Virus record (IMG/VR): IMGVR_UViG_3300009168_000011
Location: 1-60,720 of that record
Length of the DNA: 60,720 nt
From: a virus
Strand: one strand, 5' to 3'
The position numbers and the translations under genes are program-made. Below the pieces are notes generated by a model. It searched no databases. It worked only from the letters and a program-made list of their open reading frames with translations, and had not been told where the DNA came from. The first letter of the stretch is position 1; each line of letters opens with the position of its first letter. Below are positions 5,374 through 49,085 of the stretch, piece by piece.

Positions 5374-5394
5374 CATTTGATTAAAAATCAAGTC
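5374..5394 (+). repeat. Seven-copy intergenic element, site 1
   Basis: Core TTGATTAAAAATCAA on the + strand, flanked by CAT and GTC. It lies between the + strand terminator and the last codon of the 3,095-aa gene on the - strand, and overlaps that gene's stop codon by two bases. Confidence 0.8.
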
Positions 5395-8300
5395 AGTAGC
5401 CGCCAGCCGCAGCCATCTCCTCGTCGCTATACGACAGGGTCGGATCGTACAGCCCGGCCTGCGTCGCCGCGAACGCCTCCTCGCCCGGCATGTAGCGCAC
5501 GCCGCCGAGCACCGCCGCCCGCTCCCGAGCCCGGCGGGCAGGGGACTTGAGCAATGACGACAGCGGGGTGATCTTGAAGCCGTTCTCCTGCTTGACCTGC
5601 TGCAGCTTCAACCACTTCTGGATCGCCGCCTGCCTCGCCACCGCATTGCCGGACCCGATGGCATCGTTGAACTCGTCGGTGATATCGTCCTGCCGCCCCT
5701 TGAAGAAGGTGCGCACGTCGTAGGCCCGCTCGCCCCGCTTGAACGTGCCCGCCCGGTCCTCGGTCTGGAGCCCGACCGCCCGCAGCATACTCTCGCTCAT
5801 GTCGATCTCGTCGGCAGACTGGAGGAGCGTGCCGCGCTGGTTGGTGATCCCGTTCTGCGCTTCGCTAAAGGCGGACAGGGCAGACGCCATGCCGCTCGGC
5901 AGCGTCTTGGCGATGCCCTTGTACATATTGCCGTCGATCATCTCGTCGATGCCGGTCGCGAAGTTGACACCGAGCCCGCCAGCAGGGCCACCGGCAATCG
6001 CGCCGATGTACTGGAGCAGGTCGTCGCGCTGCAGCGACAGGTCCTGATAGGGCTGCACGCTGAGTACGGTCCCCTGACCCAGCGTGCTCGCCAAGTTGAG
6101 CCCGCCCAGCGTCGGTATGCCCGCCAGCAGCAGGTTGGCCAGCATCGGGTCGCCGACTGCCTCGCGGATATCCTCCTCGATATCCTCCGGCGGATCGTCC
6201 TCGTCGCCGAACAGGCCCATGATGAAGTTGACCAGCCCGAACATGAGGGTCGCTCCCGGCAGCCCGGCGATGCCGCCGAACGCGAGGACATGCCCAAGCG
6301 AATAGGCGAGGCTGCGCGCGGCAATCGCCCGCTCCGTCTTGGACAGCGACTTGTCCGCCATCCGGCTGATCATCCGGATGTAGTTGGAGGCGACGATGAT
6401 CGCGATCTTGCGGTACTGCCCGACGGTCGCACCGACCGACGACTGGAGGATGCGCGGTGCCGACGCCGTGCTGTAGTCGCCCTGCGTTTGCTGCACTGTC
6501 CGGGCTGCAGCATAGGCCGAGTTGAACTGCCGCTCGCTCATCGCCGGGCCCTCAACGTTGGCGCGGTAATCGGCGTACGCCCCGGCGTCCGGCTTGGATA
6601 CTTCGGTCGGGGTCTGCAACTCCAGTTCGTAGGCGGCAATCGCCGACGCTGCGCGGTTGAGAAACTCGACGTAGCGCGGCCACTCGCGGACCAGCCGGAC
6701 ACCCTTGAGCTTTTCGTCGAGCCGGTTCGGCAGCTTGCCGGTCTCCGACGAGATGCCGACATCGAGCAGGCCCATGTCGGCAATGTAGTTCAGCAGCGGG
6801 CGGTACTTCGCCTCGACGAAATCGGTCTTCAGTCCGTCGTCGTTGCGCCATGCCTCGCCGAGCTTGCCCATGTCGACCGCCGCGTAGGCGTTCTTGAGCG
6901 CGGCTGCCCCGCGCTTCAGGCCGTAGCGCCCCTCCAGCAGGGGGGCAGTCATGATCGTCGGCTGCAGCGTCTGCTGCAGGAGGAACCGTGGCGACAGCGA
7001 CAGCTGCCAGAAGCTGGCTACCCCGCGCACCCGCTCCAGAAAATGCGACGCAAACGTCTCCGGTGGCGGCTGCTGGGTCATCATGTAGCGGGCGGTGATC
7101 TCGTTGAACATGCGCGACGCGGCGGCGAAGTCATCGGGCTTGGTGGCCAGCTTATCCAGCGATTTCTCAAGCGCGGTGAAGCCGTCGAGGATTTCTCCGT
7201 TCCGCTGGATCGAGGCGAGATTATACGACTGGCTCTTGAGGTGCTGCTCGACATTCAGCTGGATATCGAGCGGCATGCTGGCCACGTTGAACCGGCGCAG
7301 CGCACCCTTGCGCGCGTTCTGGTCACTGAGGCTGCGCAGGTACAGCGTGCGGGCGATGTTGAGCAGCTGGTTACGGGTACTCGCCTTCATCTCCTCGCTG
7401 CCGGAGACGCGGGCCATGACCCGCTCGAACGCCTTCGGCATGTCGTCGCCAGCATAGAACTGTTCGTTTAGTCCCTTGGCTTCCTTGCGCGTCGCGACGC
7501 CACCCTTGTCGGCGGCGAACGCCGGGTTCGACTTCATGATTGCGCGGCGCATGTACTCGGCTTCCGCCTCGGTCTGGGCGAAGTCGACGAAGTAGTGGAG
7601 GTGGTCGCCCTTCAGTTCGGCCATCCGCTTGTGGTTGCCCGCCTGCTTGGCAGCGGCATACTCCTTGCTCATCGCCACCACCGCCCAGTCACCACTGCGG
7701 CGCAGCGGTGCGTAGGGCAGCGAGTTGTCGAAGTTGGCCGGGTCGAGCACCTGCTTGGTCTCGGCAGCGATCTGGTTCTCGACCGCCTGCCGCTCGACAT
7801 CATTCTTGGCCGCCGCCAGATCGGCAGCGTAGGCAGCGCGTACCACCCCGGTGGCAACGTCGCGCAGCTGCTGGGTCTTGTCGTAGATGCTGCGCAGCAG
7901 CGCCTTGGTGTGCGCCTGCCCGGCCCTCGACAGCGAGTTGAACTGCTTGGCGAACTCGGGGTTGACCTTGACCCGCGCGGCATCGGCAGCGGGCAGCCAG
8001 TCGGGGGTGAAGCCCCACTCCCCGGCACGGGTCATCGCCTCGATGAGGTTGTTGACCTTGCCCCGGTTGTCCTTGGTCACGCCGCGCCGCTCACCCTCCG
8101 GCAGGTGCAGATAGTCGCGGTTGAGGTCGGCTACTTCCTGCTCGCCGCGCACCCGGATCGCGTCACGTGACGCGATCACCCGCGCCAGCTTCTTGATCGG
8201 GTCGCTGCTGATCCCGGCCTGCTCCATGCGGCGGGCGAGCATGTCGTAGAGGTCGCCCCGGATGGCGAGATAGGACGGCCACTTGGTCTTGGCGAGGTTG

Positions 8301-11300
8301 CCCATGCCCATCAGCCACGGCTTCGACATCTCGTTGAGTTCGTTGATCGGGTTGGCCGAGACCTTGGCCCGCGCCCCGCGCAGCATCAGCTGCACCGGGT
8401 CGCCCGACTTGATCTTCTCGGCTAGTGCCTCGGCGGTCTTGGGCGGGGTGCGCGCGGCGATGTCCAGCATCGAGGTGCTCTCGCGCATCATGGCGTTGAG
8501 CAGCGGCCCGTACTTGGGCGGCAGGCCGATGATCCGCCGCACCGTGTCGACGAAGCCGCCCCACATCCCGCCGCTCTGCTTGTTGCGCATCCACTCCTGC
8601 ATCGCCGGGGAGGTGCGGCCATAGGCGAGGAACTCGTCGATGTTCTCGATAGCCTCGCCGACCTCGGGTGCGTCGCGCTTCGCATCGTACAGCTTGGCTG
8701 CCTGCTTGCGCAGTTTCTCCAGCCGGTTGACGATATCGTCGACCGCCTTGTCGCCGGTCTTCATCTTCGCCTTGAGTTCACCCCAGCGCCGCGTCGTCGC
8801 CGTGTGCAGCGCCTCATGCAGTACCGCCTCGACGTCATCGTGGTGGCCGACCTGCGCATCGATGGTGCCGTCCTCGTTGATCGTCACCCGTCCGCGCGTC
8901 CCTTCCGCCAGTTCGCCGGTCCCACTGCGTAGCTCCATGCCTTCGACCAGTGGCGCGAGCCGGTCAGCCAGTTCGCGCTGCTCTGGGCTGAGTGCCCGGC
9001 TCGTCGCGACCTTGCCCAGCGTGTCGCTCATCTGCGACGTCTCGGGGTCAGCCTCGGAGTTCGGCACCGGGTAGCTGGTCTTGCCCTTGAGCGACAGCGC
9101 CTTGCCGAGCGGGCCCACCTCCGAGTAGCCGCCGCCGATCCGGCGGGCCGGGGCCCTGATACCGGGGACGAGATTGGTGTTGGGGTTCACCTCTGCCCGC
9201 TGCTCCCCGGTCAGGTTCATGCGGTGCTGCGTCTGCCGCGCCTGCATCTCGGTCCAGTCGAGTTCATACAGCGCGCCGGGGAGGAAACGGTCGTTCTCCA
9301 CGATGTTGTTGATAGCGGACATCACCGCCGCCGCCTGATGGGGCTTGCCCGCGTTATCAAGCTCGCGAGCGAGACGCATGCCATCCATGACCATCTTCAG
9401 CGATTTCGCCAGCTGCTTGCCGTACACTGCCACCTCCGGGGAGGTCGAGATGCCCAGCTGCTTGGCCAGTTCGACCATGCGCGGCATCATCTCCGAGCCC
9501 CTGCCGAGCATCTGGGAGAACGTGGTGTCGGTGCTGATCATCCCCTCCCGGTCCTGCACGGCGTGCTGCATCTCGTGCAGCAGGACGCTGTTGAACCCGA
9601 AGCTGCCCACCCCGCCGGGCTTGGTCGAGATCATGATTTCGTTCTGGCTGTTCACGCCCTCACTCATCGAGATGAAGCGATCCGACATCCGTATGTAGTG
9701 CCCGGCAGGAGCGGTCGGCGACGGGTCGAATACCACCCGCAGGTTCTTCAGCGCCGGGTAGGCGTCGAATAGTGCGGGGTGATCGATCAACCGGCCCAGC
9801 GTGGTCACGCCGACGTGCCTCTCCTTCATCCGGTGCGGCTGCTTGATGGCCATCTCGTGGTCGGTGATCTCGAATGTCCACGGCCCGGCATCGTGGGTCT
9901 TGTACCAGCCGGTCAGCTTCTTGATCTCGCTGCCGAAGTGCGGTTTGATCCCCTGCTTCTCCATTGCCGTAGCCATGCCGAGCGTTTCGTAGCCGGGCCC
10001 GCGTGCGCCGTTCGGCCCGATCATCATCGCCAGCCCGGACATGGGAGCCCGGCCACCCTGCACGTCCAGCTTCTCGATTAGCTCGTTCATCTCCCCGCTG
10101 TTCTGCTTCTCGATCCCCTTCTCCAGCGCCGTGTAGAAAGCGAGGTCCGGCTTGACCGTTGCGCCCGAGGCGAACAGGTTGCTGGTCGCCGACATCATCG
10201 CGTCGAGCGCCGTCACCAGCTGCGGGTCCGGTATCGGGTCGGCCCCGATTGCCCGCAGGAACCAGTTGAGGATGTCGCGCCATGCCGACTTGTTGCTGTC
10301 GGCACCCACCGGATTGCCGTCGATATCGACCGAACGCAGGTAGCTCCGCAGCTTGTTGTCGACCAGCATCCACGCCAGCGCCTCGTCTATCGACCCGGCG
10401 AACTCCGAGATGGCGATGCTCGCCTTCTCCGCTCCCGCTTCGGTATCGAGTTCGAGGTTCTTGGATACTCCCTGCTTGACCTTCCCCCACAGGTCCTGAA
10501 ACTCCTTGACCACGGCATCGCCCCGGTCGACTTCATCGCCGAGTATCCGCTTGTTGCCCGGCAGATAGTTATTAAGCAGGCCCCACCGCTCGTATATGTA
10601 GACGTGGATCATCTCGTGCAGGAAGGTGTCCTCGTCGAGCCCGTGCTTGGTGTCCAACGTGACTTCGGTGCGGCCATCCTTGACGCTCGTCAGCCCCGCC
10701 GCGCCCTCGGTGTCGGCGAGGTACGGGTCGGTCCGCATGGTCAGGCTGTCGAACCCGCCCGACCCCTTCGTCAGTGCCTTGGCGATCCAGCGATAATGCG
10801 TCGATCCCGAGTTGGACGCGATCCACTGCAGCGCCTCCTTCGGCTTGCCCGCTTCGAGCAGCTTGAGCAGGTCAGGGTGCTTGAGCGTGGACGTCGACAC
10901 CGACGGCTTAGCGATGACCGGGTTGGCTATCGATATCAGCGCCGCTGCCGATATGCCCTGCAGGAAACCGCGCCGGGTAAAGTCAGGCCCCTGCTTCTCG
11001 TCGAGTTCGACCCGCATGGCGAGCCCGCCCGGACCCAGCCCGTCCTTGCGGGGACGCCCTCGCCCGCGCTTGGGCAGCTTGCCCGCTGCCTTGGCCGCGT
11101 CTATCTCTGCCCGCTTGGCTTCTGCCCGCTCGGCGGCCTCCGCAGCCTGCGTCTGCGCGTCGAGGAAGTAGCGGTTCTGCAGCGCCCGCTCGTAGTACCA
11201 CGCCGCGCCAGCGCGTGCGCCGGTAGTGGTCGGGATCGCCAGTCCGGCAGCTGCCGCGTTGATGCCGCTCGCCGCCTGTATCCGCTCCAGCGTGTCGAAG

Positions 11301-14300
11301 TAGGTCGCCAGATGGGCACGTATAGCCTCGCGGTCGACCGGTGCCGTAGTGGCCACTGCGTCCGGGTCCTGCCGGGGCATGACCCAGCCGTACTGATAGA
11401 GGTGTCCGATGTTCCAGCCGTGGTTGGTCCACGAGGCGCTGTTGCCCGGCGGCACCTCTGCAAGATACGCCTCGACCCCATCGTTGAGCCTCTGCGCCTG
11501 CGCCGTGTCGAGACCCATGGTCGAGGCGAAGTGGGTGCGGTCTTGCCGCAGACGGGTGACGCGCAACCGCGCCTTGGCCCGTTTGCCACTGTCTGGATAG
11601 GCGGTCGCGCTGTCGATGTTGTCGCCACGCAGGAAGACTGCGCCGCGCTGCAGCACGGTGGCTCCAAACTCCTTCAGATATTCGACTGCTTCCGCGACCT
11701 TCTTGGGTACGCGCGTCCCACCGCCGCGCGTGGTCGGCGCGCGTGCCGTGGTCTTCTCGGTCCGCGCCTGCTGCAGCTTCTCGACCCCATCGACGACGCG
11801 CGCCCACGCCGCCGCCTTGGCCCCCTTGAAGTTCTTCTCGCCGTGTGCCCGCAGCCGCTCGAAGTTCGGCGCTGCCTTGGCCCCCTCGTTGGCGATCATC
11901 AGTATCTGGCCATCGGTCAGCAGGCGGGCGTCCGCAGCCAGCGGGCCATTGATGAAGCGGCGCATCTCGGCGATAGGAACGCGCTCGACCGCTGGCTTCT
12001 CGACGCTCTCGGCAATCGCCGCCTCGACGGGACCGGAAGGGGCGACCGTTTCTGTCGTGGCAGGTGCGGTCGCAGGAGCTTGAGGTGAAATCTTCTCAAC
12101 CTCTACGGGCGCTGCCGGGGCCGTTTCCGGTGCGGCCTTCGCCTCCTTCGCCCATCTGTCTATATGGTCGGTGAGTATCTTTGCCAGTGCGTCATGATCG
12201 AGCGCCTCTCGCTGTGCCTGCTTGAACGCCTTGAGTTCAGCATCGTCGATCACGCCGTCCTGTTCGAGGTCGCTCGCAATCGTCCGCAGCGGAGACGATT
12301 TGCCCAGCGCGTCGGCTTCCGTCTTGGCCGCCTCGACCCGCTTGTGCAGCGCCTTGACTTCGCGGGCAGTGGCCTTAGCCTCAACCTGCGGTTGAGGCGT
12401 AGGAGCGACCGCTGGCGGTGGGACCGGGGCTGGTTCAGCCTCCGCAGGGGGCACGCCCCTAAACACATCCTGCAGTGCCGCCTTCGTCTCCGCCGTCTCC
12501 GGCCCCGCCTTTGCTCTTTCAGCCCGTGCCTTCGCCTCCGGCGTCTTCGCCTTCAACTCCGCCCGCAGTTCCTCGTTCTCCTTCTTGAGCCGGGCGGTCT
12601 CCTTCTCGGCTGCCGCCGCTTCCTTGGCTGCCTTGCGCTCGGCCTTCTCCCGCGCAATCCGCTCGCGCAGCGCCTTCCCCTCCGCGCGTGCCGCAGCCCG
12701 CTTCGCCCTAGCCGGAGCCTCCATCTCCCGCTTGGTCATCAGCGATAGCTGGCGCTCACCTGCTGGCGGGCCGCGCGTGGGTGCTGGCGCTGGCTCCTCG
12801 AACAGCGGACCTGCCTCGCCGCGCGGCGTCGGCGGACGGTAGCCACGCTCGAACGGCAACTGCGGCTCGCGCCACGCATCGATCTCCGGCAAGCGTCCTC
12901 GCGGACCAGCCGGAGCTTCACCGACACCGCGCATGGCAGGCATGGTGGTCGCCATGCCGGGCCGCTCTGGCGTGAGCATGGGCAGGCCAAGCTGGGCTTG
13001 TGGCTGCTGTGTGCTGCCATATGGCAGTGGCAACTGTTCGGGTTCGACCGGGGCCAGTGTCTCGGCGGGTGCTCGTGGCGCTGCCTCCGGCGGTGCGTTG
13101 CGCAACTGGGTGAGCCAGTTGTCAGCACGGTCCAGCGCCGCCATCCGCCACTCGGTAGTGGCCGGGCTGATCGGGTTCTTCTTGCGGTTCGACGCATCCT
13201 CGACCTCGCGCCGACGCATGTCTATCTCGGAGGCGATAGCGCGCAGGTCGCCAGTCTGCGCCATCCCAACCACCCGGTCAGACAGTGCATCCAGCCACTT
13301 GGCCGACTGGACTGGTCGATCCCTGCTGCCGATCATGGCACGCGCCACGTCGGGGTTATGCAAGACAGTCGGCGGAACGCCGGGCAATTCCATCTGCGTC
13401 GGCTCGGGGGCAGGCGGCGGCGTTGGGCGCTCAGGCGGACGGAATAGCGGACCGGCAGGTGGCGGCGCGACCCCCTGCCCCATCGGTAGCTCCGGCTGCA
13501 TCCACGTGCTCGGCGTTGCCGGTGCCTCCATCTCCGGCATGGCCATCGGCAACTGCTGCTGTCCCGGCGGGGTGCGCTCGGGCATATTCATCGGCAGCTG
13601 CATCTGCTGGTTGGAGACGCCGCCCTGCAGCGGCAGTCCGAACTGGGTGCCGGGCTCGGCCCGTGCGAACGGCGAGGATGCTGTAAGCTGCAGCATCTGG
13701 TCTGGTGCTGGCAGTGCAAGCTGGCCGGGACCACCGCCACCGCCCCCACCGGGCGTGACCGGTCCGCCCTGCGTGGTGAAGCCTGTGCCCGGACCCGGCA
13801 GCTGCAACTGCGGTGCTGGCAGGGCCAGCTGGGTATCCATCAGGTCAGTCGGCACACCGGGCTGGTCTTCGACCGGCTTCGGCTGGCGACCACGGCCAAG
13901 ATGTTCGACGGCCCCGAACGGGCCACCCAGCAGGCCGCCCGCCGCCGCGCTCTCAATATACTCGGTCTTCGCCTCCGGCGACCACAGTTCCTCGCCAGTC
14001 GCAAGCCGCTGTCCGCCCACGGTGATGGCTTCCTGTATCGCCTCCTCACCGGCCCCGGCAGCAATGGACAAGCCCAGCTTGGGCGCGGCCATGGTGCCCA
14101 GTTTCCCAAGCCCGCCACCGGCCACGCGCGCCACCGTGCCGCCGATGCCGAACGCACTTTCCATCACGCCCAGCGGGATGCCTATGCCTGCAGCCTTGGC
14201 GTAGTCCCGCTCCCCGGATACTTCTCCCTGCCGCTGCAGGATATCGCCGGTAGCCATCGTACTAGCGTAGCCGATAGCCCCCGCTGGCCCGCCGAAGCGC

Positions 14301-14680
14301 GCCGCCAATCCCAGCCCGACGAGGTTGGGCACCTGCGACGCCGCGAGATACCCGAGGTACTGCCCGAACTCGCCCTTGTTCCATGCGTCGACCGGCCCAG
14401 CAGCCTGACCCGTGTAGGGGTTGCGCGCTTGCTGGGCGTAGCCGATATCCTCGATGGCTGTCCCGGCCTTCCCCGGCACCAGCCCACCGAGACCCCGGAC
14501 CATGCTGCCCAGACCCTGCTGGAAATAATCGACGTAATCGCCTTTGTAGCCGGGGCCCTCCACCCCGTACTCCGGCCCGATGTCCGGCAGGGGGACGCCC
14601 GCGTAGGTGTACGCATCCTCCGTGGATACGTCGTCGTCTACCCGCAGCACGCGCCCGTCAGGAAGGGTGATGAACTTCAT
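5393..14680 (-). CDS. Giant (3,095-aa) internal virion polyvalent protein with three zincin motifs
   Basis: This gene takes 15% of the genome. Residues 1-260 are Gly/Ala-rich with hydrophobic helices; 270-650 are Pro/Gln-rich with repeated Q-L-x-L-P and Q-x-P-M motifs; 650-900 are Lys/Glu/Ala coiled coil. Three HExxH motifs follow, H-E-M-I-H near 1355, H-E-M-Q-H near 1702 and H-E-A-L-H near 1955, each in a zincin-like context. A twin-arginine-like R-R-G-F-L-Q-G with a hydrophobic stretch lies near 1236. Residues 2400-2900 resemble the large polyvalent-protein domain LPD38 (P-L-D-I-Q-L-N-V-E, S-Q-S-Y-N-L), and hydrophobic helices occur near 2790-2840. Such proteins enter the host with the DNA and act on cell-envelope or host targets. 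The gene follows the transglycosylase gene with a 4-base overlap. Confidence 0.9.
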   Translation of the reverse strand: MKFITLPDGRVLRVDDDVSTEDAYTYAGVPLPDIGPEYGVEGPGYKGDYVDYFQQGLGSMVRGLGGLVPGKAGTAIEDIGYAQQARNPYTGQAAGPVDAWNKGEFGQYLGYLAASQVPNLVGLGLAARFGGPAGAIGYASTMATGDILQRQGEVSGERDYAKAAGIGIPLGVMESAFGIGGTVARVAGGGLGKLGTMAAPKLGLSIAAGAGEEAIQEAITVGGQRLATGEELWSPEAKTEYIESAAAGGLLGGPFGAVEHLGRGRQPKPVEDQPGVPTDLMDTQLALPAPQLQLPGPGTGFTTQGGPVTPGGGGGGGPGQLALPAPDQMLQLTASSPFARAEPGTQFGLPLQGGVSNQQMQLPMNMPERTPPGQQQLPMAMPEMEAPATPSTWMQPELPMGQGVAPPPAGPLFRPPERPTPPPAPEPTQMELPGVPPTVLHNPDVARAMIGSRDRPVQSAKWLDALSDRVVGMAQTGDLRAIASEIDMRRREVEDASNRKKNPISPATTEWRMAALDRADNWLTQLRNAPPEAAPRAPAETLAPVEPEQLPLPYGSTQQPQAQLGLPMLTPERPGMATTMPAMRGVGEAPAGPRGRLPEIDAWREPQLPFERGYRPPTPRGEAGPLFEEPAPAPTRGPPAGERQLSLMTKREMEAPARAKRAAARAEGKALRERIAREKAERKAAKEAAAAEKETARLKKENEELRAELKAKTPEAKARAERAKAGPETAETKAALQDVFRGVPPAEAEPAPVPPPAVAPTPQPQVEAKATAREVKALHKRVEAAKTEADALGKSSPLRTIASDLEQDGVIDDAELKAFKQAQREALDHDALAKILTDHIDRWAKEAKAAPETAPAAPVEVEKISPQAPATAPATTETVAPSGPVEAAIAESVEKPAVERVPIAEMRRFINGPLAADARLLTDGQILMIANEGAKAAPNFERLRAHGEKNFKGAKAAAWARVVDGVEKLQQARTEKTTARAPTTRGGGTRVPKKVAEAVEYLKEFGATVLQRGAVFLRGDNIDSATAYPDSGKRAKARLRVTRLRQDRTHFASTMGLDTAQAQRLNDGVEAYLAEVPPGNSASWTNHGWNIGHLYQYGWVMPRQDPDAVATTAPVDREAIRAHLATYFDTLERIQAASGINAAAAGLAIPTTTGARAGAAWYYERALQNRYFLDAQTQAAEAAERAEAKRAEIDAAKAAGKLPKRGRGRPRKDGLGPGGLAMRVELDEKQGPDFTRRGFLQGISAAALISIANPVIAKPSVSTSTLKHPDLLKLLEAGKPKEALQWIASNSGSTHYRWIAKALTKGSGGFDSLTMRTDPYLADTEGAAGLTSVKDGRTEVTLDTKHGLDEDTFLHEMIHVYIYERWGLLNNYLPGNKRILGDEVDRGDAVVKEFQDLWGKVKQGVSKNLELDTEAGAEKASIAISEFAGSIDEALAWMLVDNKLRSYLRSVDIDGNPVGADSNKSAWRDILNWFLRAIGADPIPDPQLVTALDAMMSATSNLFASGATVKPDLAFYTALEKGIEKQNSGEMNELIEKLDVQGGRAPMSGLAMMIGPNGARGPGYETLGMATAMEKQGIKPHFGSEIKKLTGWYKTHDAGPWTFEITDHEMAIKQPHRMKERHVGVTTLGRLIDHPALFDAYPALKNLRVVFDPSPTAPAGHYIRMSDRFISMSEGVNSQNEIMISTKPGGVGSFGFNSVLLHEMQHAVQDREGMISTDTTFSQMLGRGSEMMPRMVELAKQLGISTSPEVAVYGKQLAKSLKMVMDGMRLARELDNAGKPHQAAAVMSAINNIVENDRFLPGALYELDWTEMQARQTQHRMNLTGEQRAEVNPNTNLVPGIRAPARRIGGGYSEVGPLGKALSLKGKTSYPVPNSEADPETSQMSDTLGKVATSRALSPEQRELADRLAPLVEGMELRSGTGELAEGTRGRVTINEDGTIDAQVGHHDDVEAVLHEALHTATTRRWGELKAKMKTGDKAVDDIVNRLEKLRKQAAKLYDAKRDAPEVGEAIENIDEFLAYGRTSPAMQEWMRNKQSGGMWGGFVDTVRRIIGLPPKYGPLLNAMMRESTSMLDIAARTPPKTAEALAEKIKSGDPVQLMLRGARAKVSANPINELNEMSKPWLMGMGNLAKTKWPSYLAIRGDLYDMLARRMEQAGISSDPIKKLARVIASRDAIRVRGEQEVADLNRDYLHLPEGERRGVTKDNRGKVNNLIEAMTRAGEWGFTPDWLPAADAARVKVNPEFAKQFNSLSRAGQAHTKALLRSIYDKTQQLRDVATGVVRAAYAADLAAAKNDVERQAVENQIAAETKQVLDPANFDNSLPYAPLRRSGDWAVVAMSKEYAAAKQAGNHKRMAELKGDHLHYFVDFAQTEAEAEYMRRAIMKSNPAFAADKGGVATRKEAKGLNEQFYAGDDMPKAFERVMARVSGSEEMKASTRNQLLNIARTLYLRSLSDQNARKGALRRFNVASMPLDIQLNVEQHLKSQSYNLASIQRNGEILDGFTALEKSLDKLATKPDDFAAASRMFNEITARYMMTQQPPPETFASHFLERVRGVASFWQLSLSPRFLLQQTLQPTIMTAPLLEGRYGLKRGAAALKNAYAAVDMGKLGEAWRNDDGLKTDFVEAKYRPLLNYIADMGLLDVGISSETGKLPNRLDEKLKGVRLVREWPRYVEFLNRAASAIAAYELELQTPTEVSKPDAGAYADYRANVEGPAMSERQFNSAYAAARTVQQTQGDYSTASAPRILQSSVGATVGQYRKIAIIVASNYIRMISRMADKSLSKTERAIAARSLAYSLGHVLAFGGIAGLPGATLMFGLVNFIMGLFGDEDDPPEDIEEDIREAVGDPMLANLLLAGIPTLGGLNLASTLGQGTVLSVQPYQDLSLQRDDLLQYIGAIAGGPAGGLGVNFATGIDEMIDGNMYKGIAKTLPSGMASALSAFSEAQNGITNQRGTLLQSADEIDMSESMLRAVGLQTEDRAGTFKRGERAYDVRTFFKGRQDDITDEFNDAIGSGNAVARQAAIQKWLKLQQVKQENGFKITPLSSLLKSPARRARERAAVLGGVRYMPGEEAFAATQAGLYDPTLSYSDEEMAAAGGY

Positions 14681-36065: not shown

Positions 36066-36086
36066 CATTTGGTTTTTAATCAAATG
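36066..36086 (-). repeat. Seven-copy intergenic element, site 2
   Basis: Read on the - strand: core TTGATTAAAAACCAA flanked by CAT and ATG. It lies 18 bases after the terminator of the - strand gene at 36160 and upstream of the HNH gene. The remaining bases between 35895 and 36066 show nothing else that I can assign. Confidence 0.8.
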
Positions 36087-36103: not shown

Positions 36104-36136
36104 AAAAAAACCCGCCATGGCCTAGGCCATGGCGGG
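36104..36136 (-). terminator. Intrinsic terminator with a perfect palindromic stem
   Basis: Bases 36111-36136 are a perfect 26-bp palindrome (11-bp stem CCCGCCATGGC with a CTAG loop), followed on the - strand by seven T (36104-36110). It lies 24 bases after the stop of the gene at 36160-36918. The stem can fold on both strands, but only the - strand has the T run. Confidence 0.85.
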
Positions 36137-36159
36137 TGAGGTATCAGGTGAGGGAAGCG

Positions 36160-36918
36160 CTACGCCTTGGGCGGTGCCTGCAGCCAAGCAATCAGCGCCG
36201 CCTTGCGGGAGGTAAGCGCCCGGAGCAACAGGTCCCCGTTTTTCGCGTTCCCCATCAGCATCGCGGCGGCATCCTCCCGCGCCTTCTTGGTGTCAATGGC
36301 GGGCGGCACCGGCGGCGCGGCATCGGCGCTAGCGGGCTTGCCAGCCACCTGAGGCGCTACTGGAGCGGCGGGAGGTGCAATCGGTGCCGGTGCCTTCGCG
36401 GCGGCCTCTGCAGCCACTGCAGCGGCCTTGGCGGCGGCCTCCGCCTTCTGCGCGTCGGTGCGATTGTCGCCGCCGCTCCCGGCCTTGATGACAGAGAGAC
36501 CGGCCTTGCGTTGCGCCTCCCGGAGCAATTCAAGGTAAGCCGTGTCACTGAGCGGCTTTTCCGCGCCGCTCTTTTTCAGAACAGCGGCGCGCGTCGGGAT
36601 TGCCTTGCCAGCCGCCTGCAGGTTAGCGGCGCGCAGCATCACCTGCCCAGCGTTGCCAGTGACATAGCCCAGCACCGCCTTGCAATGGTTCATCAGCGCT
36701 CCCTCATAGGCATCGCAGAAGGCGGTATAGCCGAGCGGCTCGACGTGGGCCGCCGCAATCGCCGCGCCGAACGCCTTGCCAATCTCGACGTTGAGAGTGA
36801 CAATCTTTTCCTGAGCGCCCTTCGCCTTCTGCAGGAAAGGATCGGTTGCGGCGAGCGCCACCGGCAACAGGGCTTCGACGTTGGCGGGAACGGCGGGAGC
36901 TTCAAACGATAGTGTCAT
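36160..36918 (-). CDS. Ala-rich protein from an independent transcription unit, function unknown
   Basis: A 252-residue protein; AAGGA lies before the ATG at 36918. Residues 1-150 look folded and helical (A-F-C-D-A-Y-E-G-A-L-M-N-H-C-K-A-V-L-G-Y-V), and 155-220 are an Ala/Pro-rich linker, with a small helical end (L-L-L-R-A-L-T-S-R-K-A-A-L-I-A-W-L). The gene has its own promoter (36971-36999) and its own strong terminator, so it is expressed alone, opposite to the MoxR-VWA operon and beside the putative origin. This isolation suggests a regulator or a replication or host-takeover factor, but no family is recognised. Confidence 0.8.
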   Translation of the reverse strand: MTLSFEAPAVPANVEALLPVALAATDPFLQKAKGAQEKIVTLNVEIGKAFGAAIAAAHVEPLGYTAFCDAYEGALMNHCKAVLGYVTGNAGQVMLRAANLQAAGKAIPTRAAVLKKSGAEKPLSDTAYLELLREAQRKAGLSVIKAGSGGDNRTDAQKAEAAAKAAAVAAEAAAKAPAPIAPPAAPVAPQVAGKPASADAAPPVPPAIDTKKAREDAAAMLMGNAKNGDLLLRALTSRKAALIAWLQAPPKA

Positions 36919-36970: not shown

Positions 36971-36999
36971 AGTATAAAGAGTGACACACTGACAGTCCA
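36971..36999 (-). promoter_or_regulatory. Promoter of the gene at 36160-36918
   Basis: On the - strand: TGGACT, 17-bp spacer, TATACT (36971-36976, a five-of-six match to TATAAT). The spacer contains two direct TGTCA units in GTCAGTGTGTCAC, a motif that recurs at other promoters of this region. Confidence 0.55.
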
Positions 37000-37014: not shown

Positions 37015-37035
37015 TATTTGATTAAAAATCAAATG
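37015..37035 (+). repeat. Seven-copy intergenic element, site 3
   Basis: Core TTGATTAAAAATCAA on the + strand, flanked by TAT and ATG; with its flanks this is the most symmetrical copy. It lies between the divergent promoter of the 36160 gene and the iteron-like repeats. Confidence 0.8.
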
Positions 37036-38489: not shown

Positions 38490-38518
38490 TTGACACGCCT
38501 GACACATTAGTCTATGCT
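38490..38518 (+). promoter_or_regulatory. Sigma70-type promoter of the MoxR-VWA operon
   Basis: TTGACA (38490-38495), 17-bp spacer containing CCTGACAC, TATGCT (38513-38518). The start site would fall near 38525, exactly at the first leader hairpin. Confidence 0.65.
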
Positions 38519-38565: not shown

Positions 38566-38586
38566 CACTTGATTAAAAAGCAAATG
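38566..38586 (+). repeat. Seven-copy intergenic element, site 4
   Basis: Core TTGATTAAAAAGCAA, flanked by CAC and ATG, in the leader of the ATPase gene, 16 bases before its start codon. Confidence 0.8.
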
Positions 38587-38602: not shown

Positions 38603-39622
38603 ATGCGCATTTCCGAAATCGAAGCCCTGCTTCCGACCCTGTTCCACGCCAACATTCCCGTCTACCTGCGCGGCGATCCCGGCGTCGGCAAGACCGAGAT
38701 GGCGATTGCCGCTGCCGTCGATATCGGCGCGGAGGTGATCTACTTCCACGCTCCCACGATGAACCCCGAGGACCTCGGCGTGCCCGACATGAGCGCCAAG
38801 GAACTGACCTTCAAGGTCAACTCCAGCATGCCGGTCTACGGCTCCAAGTGGGACAAGGCGGTCAACCCCGACGCGCCTGACCTGATCGCGGTGATCATCG
38901 ACGAACTGCCGCAGTCCGACCACGGCGTGCAGAAGTCGCTCGCCAACGTCATTCAGGCGAGGGAACTCTACGGCCACAAGATGCTGCCCAACGTCCGCTT
39001 CCTCTCGACCGGCAACCGGGCCGAGAACCGGGCCGGTGCGGGCAAGCTGCTCGGCCACTTCGCCAACCGCTGGTGCTTCCTCGACGTCGACTTCTTCATC
39101 GACGATTTCCTCGACTGGTCGCTCAAGCATCAGGTCCACCCGGTGCTGCGTGCCTTCGCCAAGTTCGATAGCAAGCAGATGAACGAGTACAAGGCCGACC
39201 GCGAGGTCAACCCGACCCCTCGTGCATGGGTCCAGCGCGTTGCGCCGCTGCTCGACGCCGGGCTCCCGGTCAACCTGCTCTACGAGGCCGTCAAGGGCTC
39301 CGTCGGCGAGGGCCCGGCGACCGTGTTCCAGTCGTTCGTGAAGATGGCCAGCCACTTGAACATCGACGCGCTCATGGCCGACCCCAAGGGCTACCCGATG
39401 CCGACCGAGAGCAGCATCCTGTACGTGCTCTCGACCACGCTGGCGATGAAGTCGACGACCAAGAACTTCGCCACCATCATGGAAATCTCGAAGCGCCTGC
39501 CGCCCGAGTTCTCGGTGCTTCTCGTCTTGGAGGCGTCCAAGGTCGAGCCGCGCATCATGTCCACCCCTGCCTATCAGGAGTGGGCGACCGGTCCGGGTGC
39601 CAAGGTGCTCGGCATCTCATGA
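38603..39622 (+). CDS. MoxR-type AAA+ ATPase
   Basis: A 339-residue ATPase preceded by AAGGA. Walker A is G-D-P-G-V-G-K-T at 24-31, Walker B is I-A-V-I-I-D-E-L with D100/E101, and sensor 1 is the Asn in L-S-T-G-N-R near 138. The order and length fit the MoxR branch, whose members act with VWA proteins as chaperone-like machines that insert metals or remodel complexes. Its VWA partner is encoded at 41314 in the same operon. Expression is from promoter 38490-38518 through a structured leader. Identity as an AAA+ ATPase is clear; its target in the infected cell is unknown. Confidence 0.88.
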   Translation: MRISEIEALLPTLFHANIPVYLRGDPGVGKTEMAIAAAVDIGAEVIYFHAPTMNPEDLGVPDMSAKELTFKVNSSMPVYGSKWDKAVNPDAPDLIAVIIDELPQSDHGVQKSLANVIQARELYGHKMLPNVRFLSTGNRAENRAGAGKLLGHFANRWCFLDVDFFIDDFLDWSLKHQVHPVLRAFAKFDSKQMNEYKADREVNPTPRAWVQRVAPLLDAGLPVNLLYEAVKGSVGEGPATVFQSFVKMASHLNIDALMADPKGYPMPTESSILYVLSTTLAMKSTTKNFATIMEISKRLPPEFSVLLVLEASKVEPRIMSTPAYQEWATGPGAKVLGIS

Positions 39623-39699
39623 TCGAGGATGACGAGAGCACCGTCTACGCCATGATCTTCATGTGGCTGGTGATCGGCTTCCTGATCATCGCCAACTGA
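39619..39699 (+). CDS. 26-residue membrane protein coupled to the ATPase
   Basis: Begins by ATGA overlap with the ATPase stop, so it is probably translated by coupling. An acidic N-terminus (M-I-E-D-D-E-S-T) precedes one hydrophobic helix (M-I-F-M-W-L-V-I-G-F-L-I-I-A). It could tether the ATPase to the membrane or be an independent small membrane protein. Confidence 0.55.
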   Translation: MIEDDESTVYAMIFMWLVIGFLIIAN

Positions 39700-39718
39700 T
39701 TTGCTTTTTAATCAAGTG
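39698..39718 (-). repeat. Seven-copy intergenic element, site 5
   Basis: Read on the - strand: core TTGATTAAAAAGCAA flanked by CAC and ATC. It overlaps the stop codon of the 26-residue gene and is the only copy in this operon with the opposite orientation to transcription. Confidence 0.8.
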
Positions 39719-39759: not shown

Positions 39760-40632
39760 ATGTCCGATATCACTTTCGCCTCCTCGACCATGCTGCTGTC
39801 GCTCAACATCTCGATCTGGTCCGGCAACAAGCTTGACAAGGGCGAGACCGCCGACGTTCGCTCCCGCACCGGTGCCCGGCAGGGTGCCGTCCGGGTCCAC
39901 AAGTCGCTGCTGCCTGACGCTCAGGAACTGCTCGACCTGCGCCGCCACGCCACCCTCGTCCGCGAGTTCTTCAACGCCCGCACCGCGCCGTGGGCTGGCG
40001 ACATGCGGATCATGCGGTCCGACGCCTACCTCGACTTCTCTCAGGAGTTGGCCGCCCACAAGCGCCACTTCTCGGTGCTGGTCGAGCGGCTGGTCGACGC
40101 CTACGAACTGCGTGTCAACGAGGCCCGCACCCGGCTCGGCACGATGTTCGATCCCGCCGACTACCCCGATGTCCGGGATATCCGCAACGCCCACGGCTTC
40201 GCCGTCCGCGTGGCACCGACCCCGTCCGTCAAGGACTGGCGTCTCGACCTCAACGACGAGGTGATGGGCGACCTGCGCCGTGATCTGGAGGAACAGAGCA
40301 ACTCCGCCATGCAGGGTGCGCTGGCCGACGTGGCGTCACGCATTGCCGAGGTGGCGAAGCGGGCTCACGAGCGCCTGTCCGACCCGTCGGCGATCTTCAG
40401 GGACAGCCTGATCGGCAACATCGACGAACTTGTCGGCCTGCTGCCGATCCTCAACGTCGCCAACGATCCGCAGCTGGACGACCTCGCCACCAACCTCCGC
40501 CTGTCGGTGTTCGGGGTCACTCCCGAGGTGCTCCGTGCCGACCCGCTGGTGCGCCGCGAGAAGGCCACCGAGATGGGCCAGCTTGCCGCCAACGCCGAGG
40601 CGCTGGCCGACCTGTTCGGAGGTGCACGCTGA
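39760..40632 (+). CDS. DUF3150-like partner protein of the MoxR-VWA module
   Basis: A 290-residue helical protein; AAGGA precedes the ATG. It begins with a beta region (S-S-T-M-L-L-S-L-N-I-S-I-W), has a conserved-looking S-L-L-P-D-A-Q-E-L, and continues as long helices (R-R-H-A-T-L-V-R-E-F-F, L-A-A-H-K-R-H-F-S-V-L-V-E-R-L). Phage proteins of this appearance encoded next to MoxR ATPases are annotated DUF3150; I make that match from memory and cannot test it. A structural partner or substrate of the ATPase is the likely role. Confidence 0.6.
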   Translation: MSDITFASSTMLLSLNISIWSGNKLDKGETADVRSRTGARQGAVRVHKSLLPDAQELLDLRRHATLVREFFNARTAPWAGDMRIMRSDAYLDFSQELAAHKRHFSVLVERLVDAYELRVNEARTRLGTMFDPADYPDVRDIRNAHGFAVRVAPTPSVKDWRLDLNDEVMGDLRRDLEEQSNSAMQGALADVASRIAEVAKRAHERLSDPSAIFRDSLIGNIDELVGLLPILNVANDPQLDDLATNLRLSVFGVTPEVLRADPLVRREKATEMGQLAANAEALADLFGGAR

Positions 40633-40964
40633 TGGCCCAGCAAGTGATCGTGCTGCGCAGGGACGGCCACGTCGTCGCCTATCACAGCGACCTGTCAGGT
40701 GGGCTGGAGCAGGCGTTCCAGACTGCGCTGGCTGCCCAGCGCAGGGCCGAGGCGAGGGAGCCCGATGCCAAGTTCGCCCTGTCCATCGAGCCGGTGTCAG
40801 CGGTGAAAACCGTGCAGTACAAGCACGGTGGCAGGTGGCACAACATCGAGGGGCATGGCTGCGCCGACGAGGCGGAGATGCAGGAGTACGTGGACACACT
40901 CAGCAAGTATGGCCCCGGCCTCCGCGTTGCCGATGTCACCACCAACGGGGAGGTCGCGAAGTGA
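40632..40964 (+). CDS. Small protein of the MoxR-VWA operon, function unknown
   Basis: A 110-residue protein that starts by a TGATG overlap with the previous stop. It is alpha/beta (Q-Q-V-I-V-L-R-R-D-G-H-V-V-A-Y, then a long helix, then V-Q-Y-K-H-G-G-R-W-H-N-I-E-G-H). No family is recognised. Confidence 0.75.
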   Translation: MAQQVIVLRRDGHVVAYHSDLSGGLEQAFQTALAAQRRAEAREPDAKFALSIEPVSAVKTVQYKHGGRWHNIEGHGCADEAEMQEYVDTLSKYGPGLRVADVTTNGEVAK

Positions 40965-41137
40965 TGGGCCGGTTCAAGGTCGCCCCGTTCGACAAGGGCT
41001 ATGGCGACGGCAATCGTTTCGATGGCCTGTACGACCCGCGCTACGACTACCAGCCCGATGAGCGTGCCGAGTACCGGCAGGGCTTCGACGCTGGCCGCAA
41101 CGTCAAGCTGGCTGGCCTGTGTGGAGGTGCCCGCTGA
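40964..41137 (+). CDS. 57-residue protein, function unknown
   Basis: Starts by overlap TGATG with the previous gene. It is charged and Tyr/Asp-rich (G-Y-G-D-G-N-R-F-D-G-L-Y-D-P-R-Y-D-Y) with a helical C-terminus (E-Y-R-Q-G-F-D-A-G-R-N). A similar Y-x-Q-G-F-x-x-G end is seen in small phage proteins of unknown role. Confidence 0.7.
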   Translation: MGRFKVAPFDKGYGDGNRFDGLYDPRYDYQPDERAEYRQGFDAGRNVKLAGLCGGAR

Positions 41138-41211
41138 TGCAATGGCACGCCCCGCTGATCGCGTTCGTGGCTCTGTTCGTGGTGATGGCTATTCTTGCCG
41201 TCGCCTCCTGA
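41137..41211 (+). CDS. 24-residue membrane peptide
   Basis: Starts by TGATG overlap. After M-Q-W-H-A-P it is one hydrophobic helix (L-I-A-F-V-A-L-F-V-V-M-A-I-L-A-V-A). It is the third overlapping small gene in a row and is followed by a strong hairpin at 41220-41246. Confidence 0.5.
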   Translation: MQWHAPLIAFVALFVVMAILAVAS

Positions 41212-41219
41212 CGTACACC

Positions 41220-41246
41220 GTGTAGGCTGGCCCACCCAGCCTACAC
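41220..41246 (+). terminator. Strong hairpin before the VWA gene promoter (possible attenuating terminator)
   Basis: Perfect 11-bp stem GTGTAGGCTGG and CCAGCCTACAC with loop CCCAC. No T run follows, so termination would be weak or factor-dependent. A new promoter starts eight bases later, which supports a unit boundary here. Confidence 0.4.
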
Positions 41247-41253
41247 GTGAGCG

Positions 41254-41282
41254 TTGACACGGCCCTGACAACCTGCTATACC
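41254..41282 (+). promoter_or_regulatory. Sigma70-type promoter of the VWA gene
   Basis: TTGACA (41254-41259), 17-bp spacer with CCCTGACA, TATACC (41277-41282), followed directly by ATGACACATGG. It resembles promoter 38490-38518 both in boxes and in the CTGACA spacer motif. Confidence 0.65.
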
Positions 41283-41313
41283 ATGACACATGGTCAACCA
41301 AAGGAACTACCCG

Positions 41314-42534
41314 ATGACGCACCCGATCCTTCAGCTTCCGATCCTTCACTCCATCTCCGCCGCCGAGGTGATCAGCCAAGCCAAGGCACGCCTGATCCTG
41401 ACGCAACCGTTCTTCGGCAGCCTCGCCTGCTCGATGGACTTCGTCGAGGAACCCGGCCTCAACCCTCCGACCATGGCCACTGACGGCGAGAAGGTTTACT
41501 ACCATCCGCAGTTCGTGCTGACCCACACGGCGGACGAGAACCTGTTCGTGGTGTGCCATGAAATCATGCACGTGGCGCTGGTCCACATGTTCCGGATGCG
41601 GACCCGCGACATGCGGCTCGGCAACATCGCCGCCGACTACGCCATCAACGAAATCCTGTGTGTCGAGGGCATCGGCAGCTTCCCCAAGGGTGGCTTACGC
41701 GACAGCGACATCTACAAGCGTGGCGGCGGCACGATGGAGGGCATCTACTCGCTGCTCCTGCAGGAGAACCCGCCTCCGCCTCCGGGTGGCGGCGGCAAGC
41801 CGGGCGACGGTGAGCCGGGCGATGGCTTGCCCGAACTGATGGACCGCCTGCTCGAACCCGGTGCGGGCAAGAGCGAGAGCGAGGTCGCAGCCAAGGAAGC
41901 CGAGGTCCGCCTGAAGGTGGCCGGTGCAATGCAGGCAGCGGAGATGCGTGGCACCCTGCCGGGTAGCCTCAAGCGCCTGCTCAAGGACGCGCTCGACGTC
42001 AAGACGCCGTGGCAGAACGTGCTGCGCCGCTTCTTCACGGAGCGCAGCGATGAGTACCGCTCGTGGGCACGGCCCAACCGCCGGTTCGCCAGTCAAGGCA
42101 TCTACCTGCCCAGCCCGGACGGGGTGCGCATGGGCATTGCCTTCTGCGGCACCGATGCGTCGGGCTCGATCAACCAGAAGATGTTCGACATCTTCGCCGC
42201 CGAGATGAACAAGGTGGTCGCCGACACTATGCCCAAGAAGGTGGTCGTCGGGGTGTTCGACACCCGCATCACGGATGAAATCGAGTTCGATCCATCCGAG
42301 GGTGATCGCATTGTGCTCACGGCCAAGGCAGGGGGCGGCACCAACTTCGCCCCGGTCATGGACTGGTGCCAGAGCAGGGACGAGGACCCGGCGTGCCTGA
42401 TCATGCTGACCGACGGTCACTGCGGCCAGTTCGGCAACGAGCCCAGCTGCCCGGTGCTGTGGGCGGTGCTCGGGTCGACCGGCAACAAGAAGTTCAAGCC
42501 GCCCTTCGGCGAGGTCATCTGGATCGAGGGGTAA
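41314..42534 (+). CDS. Putative metallopeptidase-VWA protein, MoxR partner
   Basis: A 406-residue protein; AAAGGA precedes the ATG at 41314, so the upstream ATG at 41290 is less likely. The N-terminal half is a DUF2201-like putative metallopeptidase with H82-E-I-M-H86. A Pro/Gly linker lies at 152-175. The C-terminal half is a VWA-like domain with a complete MIDAS: D281-A-S-G-S285, T343 in G-G-T-N-F, and D367 in M-L-T-D-G. A MoxR ATPase with such a VWA protein is a known pair in bacteria and some phages; the ATPase may load or release the metal-bound VWA protein. It has its own promoter, so its level can differ from the ATPase. Confidence 0.85.
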   Translation: MTHPILQLPILHSISAAEVISQAKARLILTQPFFGSLACSMDFVEEPGLNPPTMATDGEKVYYHPQFVLTHTADENLFVVCHEIMHVALVHMFRMRTRDMRLGNIAADYAINEILCVEGIGSFPKGGLRDSDIYKRGGGTMEGIYSLLLQENPPPPPGGGGKPGDGEPGDGLPELMDRLLEPGAGKSESEVAAKEAEVRLKVAGAMQAAEMRGTLPGSLKRLLKDALDVKTPWQNVLRRFFTERSDEYRSWARPNRRFASQGIYLPSPDGVRMGIAFCGTDASGSINQKMFDIFAAEMNKVVADTMPKKVVVGVFDTRITDEIEFDPSEGDRIVLTAKAGGGTNFAPVMDWCQSRDEDPACLIMLTDGHCGQFGNEPSCPVLWAVLGSTGNKKFKPPFGEVIWIEG

Positions 42535-42570: not shown

Positions 42571-42591
42571 CACTTGATTAAAAACCAAATG
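42571..42591 (+). repeat. Seven-copy intergenic element, site 6
   Basis: Core TTGATTAAAAACCAA, flanked by CAC and ATG. The ribosome binding site GGAG of the next gene begins at its last base. Confidence 0.8.
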
Positions 42592-42602: not shown

Positions 42603-43232
42603 ATGGTCAAGCTGCATACCATCCCCGGCGTTCACGCCGTCACCACCTACACGCTGGTCCCTCGGGACCTGACGCCGACCACCCGCAATCTCGTGGTAGC
42701 TGCGCTGTCACGTGGCTACGTGGTTGGGCACCCCACCCACTCGGTCACCTATCAGGTGATCAGCGCACTCAGCAACGGGCTCGGCCAGAAGTTCGAGCGG
42801 CGCTTCGCCATGCCGGTCTTCGGCTTCCCGTCTGACGTTAGCACCCGCGAGTACCCGATTACCGACGTGCACTATCCGTTCGGCATGCTGGAGTTGGTCA
42901 AGCCGGAACTTGACGACCTGCGCAAGGAACTGGCGGTGACCTACTCGCTGATCACGGCCAAGACCAAGCTGGCGGTGCCGGTACGCTCCCGGTTCGTGCC
43001 CGACCTGTCAACCCCGGAAGCGAAGACCTGCGGCAGGTTTGCCGGGATCAAGCCCGAAGCGCCCCGCCTGATCGCCTTCGTCGGCACGATGGTGGCGCGT
43101 GCCGACCCGGCGTTCCGCCACGACATGCGGCTGATGCGCGAGGTGATCCAGATGGGCGAGGCGGTGCCGTACCTCGTCAAGCACAAGGTCAACCCGACCG
43201 CCAAGCCTGCCGCCAAGAAGGGAAAGAAGTGA
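42603..43232 (+). CDS. MoxR-VWA operon protein, function unknown
   Basis: A 209-residue protein with GGAG eight bases before the ATG. It is alpha/beta with a Lys-rich tail (A-A-K-K-G-K-K) and a helical region before it (F-R-H-D-M-R-L-M-R-E-V-I-Q-M-G). No family is recognised. Its leader holds a hairpin and element site 6, so it may be controlled separately from the VWA gene. Confidence 0.75.
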   Translation: MVKLHTIPGVHAVTTYTLVPRDLTPTTRNLVVAALSRGYVVGHPTHSVTYQVISALSNGLGQKFERRFAMPVFGFPSDVSTREYPITDVHYPFGMLELVKPELDDLRKELAVTYSLITAKTKLAVPVRSRFVPDLSTPEAKTCGRFAGIKPEAPRLIAFVGTMVARADPAFRHDMRLMREVIQMGEAVPYLVKHKVNPTAKPAAKKGKK

Positions 43233-47203: not shown

Positions 47204-47291
47204 GGCGTTCTTCCAGCGTGCGGTCGGGCTCATGCTACTGGCCTACATCGCCGTCATCCTGACCATCATGCTGTTTGAAGGGGGCGTCTGA
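47196..47291 (+). CDS. 31-residue membrane peptide
   Basis: Overlaps the previous gene by eight bases; GGGAGA lies upstream. One helix (V-G-L-M-L-L-A-Y-I-A-V-I-L-T-I-M-L-F) fills most of the sequence. Confidence 0.5.
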   Translation: MREAFFQRAVGLMLLAYIAVILTIMLFEGGV

Positions 47292-47684: not shown

Positions 47685-47700
47685 AGAAGGGGTAACAATC

Positions 47701-48146: not shown

Positions 48147-48289
48147 CCGAGGCGGAGGCGGAACGCGCAGCGATCATCCGTCACATGAAGAAGGACATCG
48201 GTTGGCTGGGCGAGGCCACAGCCAACCACGTCCGGCAACTGATCAACGATATCAGGCGGGGTGACCACCTGAAAAAGGGGGACGAGTGA
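48143..48289 (+). CDS. 48-residue helical protein
   Basis: Starts by ATGA overlap. Charged helices (E-A-E-A-E-R-A-A-I-I-R, H-V-R-Q-L-I-N-D-I-R). No family is recognised. Confidence 0.6.
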   Translation: MTEAEAERAAIIRHMKKDIGWLGEATANHVRQLINDIRRGDHLKKGDE

Positions 48290-48465
48290 ACGCGTGTTAC
48301 AATCCATGGTGCGACGGCGTACCCAAGGCACGGAAGTTCGGTGGCAGGTGGACCAATCGCTGGTCGGTCGAGTGCCCGAAGTGCGAGATGCGCGGCCCGG
48401 CAGCGGCGACCGAGGCCATGGCTGTCAAGCTATGGGACGGCGAGGAACAGAAGAAGACGGCATAA
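48286..48465 (+). CDS. Lar-like zinc ribbon protein (possible restriction alleviation)
   Basis: A 59-residue protein with GTG start overlapping the previous stop. The pattern C-Y-N-P-W-C-D-G, W-S-V-E-C-P-K-C-E-M-R-G-P-A, A-M-A-V-K-L-W follows that of Lar-type zinc ribbons (C-x3-C, V-x-C-x2-C-x3-G-P, A-x4-W). Lar of the Rac prophage reduces cutting by type I restriction systems; many phage Lar-like proteins are untested, so this function is an inference. Confidence 0.55.
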   Translation: MNACYNPWCDGVPKARKFGGRWTNRWSVECPKCEMRGPAAATEAMAVKLWDGEEQKKTA

Positions 48466-48473
48466 GGGGGACG

Positions 48474-48884
48474 ATGATGGGTTGGCTGACATGCTACCGT
48501 TGCAAGGAACAGTTCGGCCTCACCAATGAAGTCGAGGAGATGCTGCGCCGGAACCACCAGACTTTCCACTGTCCTTGGGGGCACAGCCAGCACTTCAAGG
48601 AGGGCGAGACCGAGGAACAGAAGCTGCGGCGCGAGGTCAACCAGCTGAAGCAGAACAAGGCGTACCTCGAAGACATGCGACGCAAGGCCGAGGCCCGCGC
48701 CGACCGTGAGCGCAACCGCGCCAACGGCTACAAGGGCCATGCCACCCGCATCAGCAAGCGGGTCAAGAACGGGGTCTGCATATGCTGCAACCGCACGTTC
48801 GCCGACCTCGCCCGGCACATGGCAACCAAGCACCCCACGTTCACGCCGCTCGATGTTGAGCCGGACAAGGCGACGGTGCAGTGA
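48474..48884 (+). CDS. Zinc-binding phage protein with two Cys/His clusters
   Basis: A 136-residue protein preceded by GGGGG. N-terminal C-Y-R-C-K-E-Q-F-G-L-T and F-H-C-P-W-G-H-S-Q form one zinc site; a coiled coil follows (E-E-Q-K-L-R-R-E-V-N-Q-L-K-Q-N); the C-terminus has C-I-C-C-N-R-T-F and L-A-R-H-M-x3-H-P, a C2H2-like finger. I have seen this form often in phages and mobile elements without a proven role. It is the last gene of the + strand accessory operon. Confidence 0.75.
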   Translation: MMGWLTCYRCKEQFGLTNEVEEMLRRNHQTFHCPWGHSQHFKEGETEEQKLRREVNQLKQNKAYLEDMRRKAEARADRERNRANGYKGHATRISKRVKNGVCICCNRTFADLARHMATKHPTFTPLDVEPDKATVQ

Positions 48885-48906
48885 AAATAATTTTCGAGGG
48901 GGGTGC

Positions 48907-48934
48907 TTGACGCCCCCGTATTACCCGTTACACA
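48907..48934 (+). promoter_or_regulatory. Weak promoter-like sequence upstream of the structured region
   Basis: TTGACG (48907-48912), 16-bp spacer, TACACA (48929-48934). The -35 box also lies inside a small hairpin (GGGGGTG and CGCCCCC). Support is modest. Confidence 0.25.
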
Positions 48935-48957
48935 TGATCACAGCCAGCCACTGAACT

Positions 48958-49049
48958 GGTCCCGGACTTCGGTCCGAGACCGACTAGGTGACAGGTCAGG
49001 GACCTCGGTGTTCGGCCTTCATGCTTCGGCATGCAGTGCCAACCCGAGG
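48958..49049 (+). ncRNA. Candidate structured RNA with two UUCG tetraloop hairpins
   Basis: Hairpin 1: GGTC, CGGAC, loop TTCG, GTCCG, GACC with one facing mismatch (48958-48981). Hairpin 2: nested stems CCTCGG/CCGAGG, GGC/GCC and CATGC/GCATG closed by TTCG (49003-49049). Two stems closed by this very stable tetraloop within 92 bases, outside any gene, suggest an RNA that is folded and kept. It could equally be the 3' end of the + strand operon message acting as a barrier. Element site 7 follows. Confidence 0.4.
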
Positions 49050-49064
49050 AACCGCCCTCCCCCT

Positions 49065-49085
49065 CACTTGATTAAAAAGCAAGTA
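49065..49085 (+). repeat. Seven-copy intergenic element, site 7
   Basis: Core TTGATTAAAAAGCAA, flanked by CAC and GTA. It lies at the convergence of the + strand accessory operon and the - strand fibre operon, directly after the stop of the 49087 gene, like site 1. Confidence 0.8.

Follow-up and report, generated by a model that had tools for sequence, protein, structure and literature searches.

A seven-copy intergenic palindrome in an uncultured phage genome and the private palindromes of collinear relatives: a probable set of regulator-binding sites

The DNA analysed here (the window) is the whole stretch of 60,720 nucleotides, the first ~123 bases of which (1-123) recur at 60598-60720, a terminal repeat that is consistent with a complete genome with circular overlap. 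Matches to PHROGs were obtained for a portal/head-tail adaptor, an internal virion protein, a DNA polymerase and a MoxR-type ATPase, and the nearest cultured portal match is that of Rhizobium phage RHph_TM3_14A, with 35% identity. Distant relatives of the internal virion protein are found in bacterial contigs (L421-L425, e.g., Pseudomonas and Marinomonas, 25-33% identity). The MoxR-like ATPase gene (38603-39622, plus strand) served as the anchor for comparison between genomes, and a single-sequence query with MoxR against viral contigs found no relative; its operon is preceded by a promoter-like TTGACA-N17-TATGCT (38490-38518, plus strand). Further along the same strand, a gene matching phrog_1314 (41290-42534) is called VWA here, after the naming used in the sequence-only reading of this DNA. 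The region 5393-14680 holds an ORF of 3095 aa whose sole match, a weak one, is to LPD23 (large polyvalent protein associated domain), and the DNA of this giant-ORF region gave no match to cultured phages. Rfam and tRNA scans of the window returned none, and there were no Phage_integrase or Resolvase matches in it.

The sequence-only reading had reported a near-palindromic element in seven copies with a core identical but for one base, lying outside genes or touching stop codons and too frequent for chance, and all of this was confirmed: seven exact matches to TTGATTAAAAANCAA are present in the window, five of them plus-strand and two minus-strand. The element starts as first reported include a 3-base flank, so that each core starts three bases further in. 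Copy 1 (5374-5394, core 5377, plus strand) is a perfect dyad, TTGATTAAAAATCAA, at the convergent junction of the primase gene and the giant ORF, where it follows a terminator-like hairpin and ends one base ahead of the giant-ORF stop. Copy 2 (36066-36086, core 36069, minus strand) lies 3' of a candidate regulator gene and its terminator, and copy 3 (37015-37035, core 37018, plus strand), also a perfect dyad, stands ahead of the start codon of that gene. In the MoxR leader, copy 4 (38566-38586, core 38569, plus strand) is placed 50 bp past the -10 hexamer, with its core ending 19 bp before the start codon. Copy 5 (39698-39718, core 39701, minus strand) adjoins a GC hairpin in the gap between MoxR and the gene at 39760, and begins one base past the called stop, both flanking genes being on the plus strand. 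Copy 6 (42571-42591, core 42574, plus strand) occupies the gap between the VWA gene and the gene at 42603, its core ending 14 bp before the start codon of the latter, while copy 7 (49065-49085, core 49068, plus strand) separates the end of a plus-strand operon from the minus-strand gene 49087-49479.

When up to three mismatches to TTGATTAAAAANCAA were allowed, nine matches were found against 0.45 expected (maximum of two in 100 shuffles), two of the nine being perfect copies read in reverse, and there was no copy with one or two mismatches anywhere in the window. The looser dyad TTGNTTNNNAANCAA, searched with zero mismatches, recovers just those seven sites. The centres of all seven copies are non-coding according to a simple gene caller made for this analysis, although only ~7% of the genome is non-coding (binomial P 9e-9). 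It can be seen that the flanks are conserved as well, with A at -2, T at +2, Y at -1 and R at +1 in every copy, C at -3 in six and G at +3 in four of the seven, so the dyad extends over ~19-21 bp. The invariant half-site is TTGATT, and the other half reads TTGNTT on the opposite strand. The FNR site has the form TTGAT-N4-ATCAA; an FNR-type site was considered and dropped, since the element has a spacer of five and one variable half-site base. Two near-identical IMG/VR fragments (G006, G007) carry the same element in corresponding places, and a scan of viral contigs with the 15-mer pattern gave one copy apiece among the matches listed. In the published literature searched, we found no description of these elements.

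The sequence-only reading had named homologous phages of conserved gene order without the element as evidence that would refute it, and here the outcome was unexpected: the sequence is absent from collinear relatives, which have their own palindrome instead (5-13 copies apiece), and in several of them it stands in those very gaps. Twelve distinct palindromes were found in twelve genomes of the sample, the window included (e.g., GATTTACCCGGTAAATC, GTTTACCCCGGGGTAAAC and TATTTTCGCGAAAATA), several of these genomes being fragments. For example, G001, with a portal 53% identical and much of the gene order shared, lacks the window sequence but has ten copies of ATTTACCCGGTAAAT, one with a mismatch, at sites that include the MoxR leader, the gap after MoxR and the VWA gene end. 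De novo scanning gave ATTTAATCNGATTAAAT in G008, ATTAACTNNAGTTAAT in G009, TATTTTCGCGAAAATA in G010, TAATTTTGCAAAATTA in G011, ATTAACCNNGGTTAAT in G012, GGTTATCCCGGGATAACC in G014, ATTGCTN4AGCAAT in G020, GTTTACCCCGGGGTAAAC in G021, TCACACGNNCGTGTGA in G026 and GTTATGCCNGGCATAAC in G078. Some half-sites are alike (G009 and G012, G001 and G021). Dyads with identical 6-bp half-sites, a scan that misses the imperfect dyad of the window, occur in 5-13 copies in eleven relatives, compared with a maximum dyad count of two, rarely three or four, in codon-block shuffles; among 50 unrelated viral contigs (at least 9 kb), the maximum was two or fewer in 49 and three in one. The palindromes of G014 and G021 were found in the viral collection in their own genomes, with three single matches besides, and nowhere else. 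The G018 fragment has its own dyad, TATTCCNGGAATA, in three copies only, and was left out of the twelve. The palindrome scan found none in G015, G016, G017, G022, G025, G028-G031 and others; thus, not every member of the wider group has the feature.

In the pair G020 and G021, MoxR is 84%, the portal 81-84% and TerL 89% identical, while the palindromes are unrelated and their positions match. The GC content of the relatives varies widely (G020 and G021 are similar), and the hosts of these phages probably differ. Predicted proteins of G020 (4444-5160, contig L337) and G021 (12123-12800, contig L341) have a PEP-CTERM-like tail (VPEPATWA..., a hydrophobic stretch and arginines), a possible clue to the host group. 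Two other repeat patterns were seen. In G009, seven copies of TGACAAATCAA in both orientations lie within ~300 bp (54463-54764; contig L330 14463-14764) and are iteron-like. RHph_TM3_14A (MN988472; L152/L153) has ~45 degenerate GTTACCTNNNNAGGTAAC dyads genome-wide, about half of them inside annotated genes, and these GTTACCTN4AGGTAAC dyads were treated as distinct from the present element.

Of 98 palindrome sites in ten genomes, 82 are non-coding, with 8.6 expected, and palindromes of different phages often occupy matching gaps. The order in the MoxR leader is the same in seven genomes (the window, G001, G008, G009, G014, G020 and G021), namely a sigma-70-like promoter, 36-53 bp, the palindrome, 15-28 bp and the start codon, with promoter hexamer scores of 9.5-11.5 in six of them and 8.5 in G009. 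By eye, most MoxR leaders also have a short stem-loop between the promoter and the palindrome. G010 and G012 have a palindrome 39-41 bp before MoxR, and both the window and G010 carry a site in the convergent gap that follows the primase gene. As the palindrome stands downstream of the MoxR promoter, a protein bound to it would meet the elongating polymerase.

The candidate cognate regulator gene (36160-36918, minus strand, 252 aa) lies between copies 2 and 3, with element centres 107 bp upstream of its start codon and 84 bp downstream of the gene; the G009 counterpart shows these two spacings as well. Behind the gene is a terminator-like hairpin with a 12 bp stem and a T run (36110-36137, minus strand), and ahead of it, downstream of copy 3, a promoter-like TGGACT-N17-TATACT (36971-36999, minus strand). 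Its counterparts in the relatives form a hypervariable gene that opens the early region and has ~186-300 codons, and a palindrome is centred 25-203 bp (about 205 at most) upstream of the counterpart start in all 11 testable genomes, i.e., those with upstream DNA present, G018 included (the G010 record ends before that region). In G020, where the contig end cuts the ORF at this position and leaves its last 33 codons, the palindrome is 57 bp past the stop, and the distance in G021 is equal.

Six of the counterparts are joined by sequence, weakly but consistently (phmmer E 1.7e-5 to 0.036; G012 profile E 0.0012). When a C-terminal profile of three members was searched against 4,503 ORFs, the window candidate was the top match outside the seed (E 0.11), and hhalign of this candidate against the family profile gave E 0.003 over 35 columns; it joins the counterparts via the C-terminal segment, and G021 via the N-terminal part. 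The G026 counterpart, for which the profile comparison was negative, and that of G078 are linked by position only, and the link of the candidate to its counterparts rests mainly on position. The product is predicted, with low confidence, to be all-helical, with an Ala/Pro-rich linker and a C-terminal helical segment common to the positional counterparts. It has no match in Pfam, PHROGs or the PDB and no recognised DNA-binding domain, and two fold predictions, both of low confidence, gave no structural match. In several genomes sites also lie on both sides of MoxR, and bracketing by itself is therefore insufficient to identify the reader of the palindrome. Nevertheless, of the two products proposed as binders in the sequence-only reading, that of 36160-36918 is most likely the better candidate, with two copies bracketing its gene and a palindrome upstream of it in 11 of 11 genomes, and we favour it over the HTH protein of 1905-2183.

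What was observed directly is the copies and where they lie, the palindromes private to single phages, the positions kept between genomes, and the two copies on either side of the candidate gene. The seven copies most likely serve as binding sites specific to this phage, the regulator that reads them being viral and fast-evolving. We infer a mechanism in which a phage-encoded, sequence-specific regulator would bind the palindrome as a symmetric dimer in leaders just past promoters, between cistrons and where operons end; there it would road-block or modulate transcription, so that early operons would be kept off or timed; it would also control its own gene. Regulator and sites may have been replaced together in lineages, leaving each phage with a private sequence at kept positions such as the MoxR leader. 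The joint proposal, that the copies are dispersed operators of one phage-encoded symmetric-dimer regulator, likely the 36160-36918 product, and that the two are replaced together, seems to us rather probable. Phage_integrase matches over the cut-off were present in G012 and G014, and some members of the group may be temperate; the window has no integrase, and an immunity role for the sites thus stays a proposal. A tyrosine-integrase-like gene of G014 (40496-41656, contig L333 496-1656, 386 aa) has a copy of the G014 palindrome near it, at 40340.

Other readers of the palindromes have to be considered. If the 92-aa HTH protein (1905-2183, plus strand) were the reader, specificity would come from a few residues; it has a weak HTH_3 match, HTH proteins are present in ten of the phages, and in G020 and G021 a palindrome stands 36-38 bp before the HTH gene. 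In cluster A phages, moreover, identical repressor HTH domains can go with distinct motifs (PMC6550527). However, the HTH proteins of G020 and G021 are 79% identical and share the helix GRVSCSYWLNG, while their palindromes are unrelated, and G010 and G011 have palindromes yet no HTH gene between g833 and the primase gene, which makes this protein an unlikely reader. The same pair of phages bears on the idea of a host-encoded DNA-binding protein, with palindromes varying as hosts vary. Host regulators commonly bind palindromes, and the wide GC spread and probably different hosts fit, but close relatives of similar GC should then not have unrelated palindromes, nor would one expect phage-specific site positions adjoining one hypervariable phage gene; we regard a host protein as improbable.

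An element acting in RNA, as a transcript hairpin in antitermination, translation control or mRNA end formation, would agree with several leader copies lying just upstream of Shine-Dalgarno sequences and with the foldability of some palindromes, a perfect window copy having a predicted hairpin. On the other hand, for two of three tested window sequences no RNA hairpin is predicted, and folding is poor for the palindromes of G008 and G010; since several palindromes are symmetric through the centre, both orientations are used and sites occur at convergent junctions, recognition as DNA is favoured, and an RNA element is very unlikely. Sites bound by a protein of replication, segregation or DNA packaging could be dispersed in a similar manner, and the long non-coding stretch near copy 3 and the separate repeat cluster of G009 count for them, but the tight placement between promoter and start codon in leaders is what a role in transcription predicts, and we give this reading very little weight.

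A wider claim built on the regulator-operator reading is, in our judgement, about evenly balanced between right and wrong: that a widespread podovirus-like group has an orphan family of linker-rich regulators that lack a recognised DNA-binding fold, co-respecified with ~ten palindromic operators, so that operator sets are unrelated even at 81-89% MoxR/portal/TerL identity while positions are conserved. If right, these phages offer a natural series of matched regulator/operator sets in which to study how a protein and the many scattered DNA sites that it binds shift specificity in step, a question that has long stood in work on the evolution of repressors and immunity. With one private palindrome in each genome, there would also be a bioinformatic handle for tracing the early regulator of uncultured phages.

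It is already known that repressor sites can be dispersed intergenically, as are the conserved inverted repeats of Streptomyces phage phiC31 and the C1 operators of phage P1. The sequence-only reading had likened the element to the stoperators of cluster A mycobacteriophages (L5, Bxb1), which are numerous, asymmetric and transcription-oriented (PMC6550527, PMC9283540), with a 13-bp asymmetric consensus bound by a monomer (PMC9283540). Common to both are the placing of sites in short gaps close to where genes begin and end, a site sequence that varies between phage groups and, if 36160-36918 encodes the regulator, a site ahead of the repressor gene (PMC6550527). Unlike stoperators, the sites in the window and its relatives are dyads, their orientation is not tied to transcription (cores 36069 and 39701 are on the minus strand), and there are seven in the window and 5-13 in relatives compared with 20-30 per cluster A genome. 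Turnover of site sequence between relatives is near-total here, in contrast to cluster A. The cluster A repressor has an N-terminal HTH and a stoperator domain and, when bound, blocks transcription elongation, whereas the candidate here has no recognised repressor domain and its road-blocking is presumed. The idea of an intergenic set of regulator sites is thus best supported, while the asymmetry, orientation and number are not shared, and we describe the element as one that may work like stoperators without classing it as one.

A second precedent is SPBRE of Bacillus phage SPbeta, a 15-bp repeated intergenic element first recognised in silico and later found to be the sites of the master repressor MrpR (PMC10516654). 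The present element was likewise spotted in silico as a short intergenic repeat. MrpR has a tyrosine-recombinase fold, whereas the candidate regulator has no Pfam match and the window no Phage_integrase, and, unlike in SPBRE/MrpR, the main feature here is the private replacement of the palindrome in relatives.
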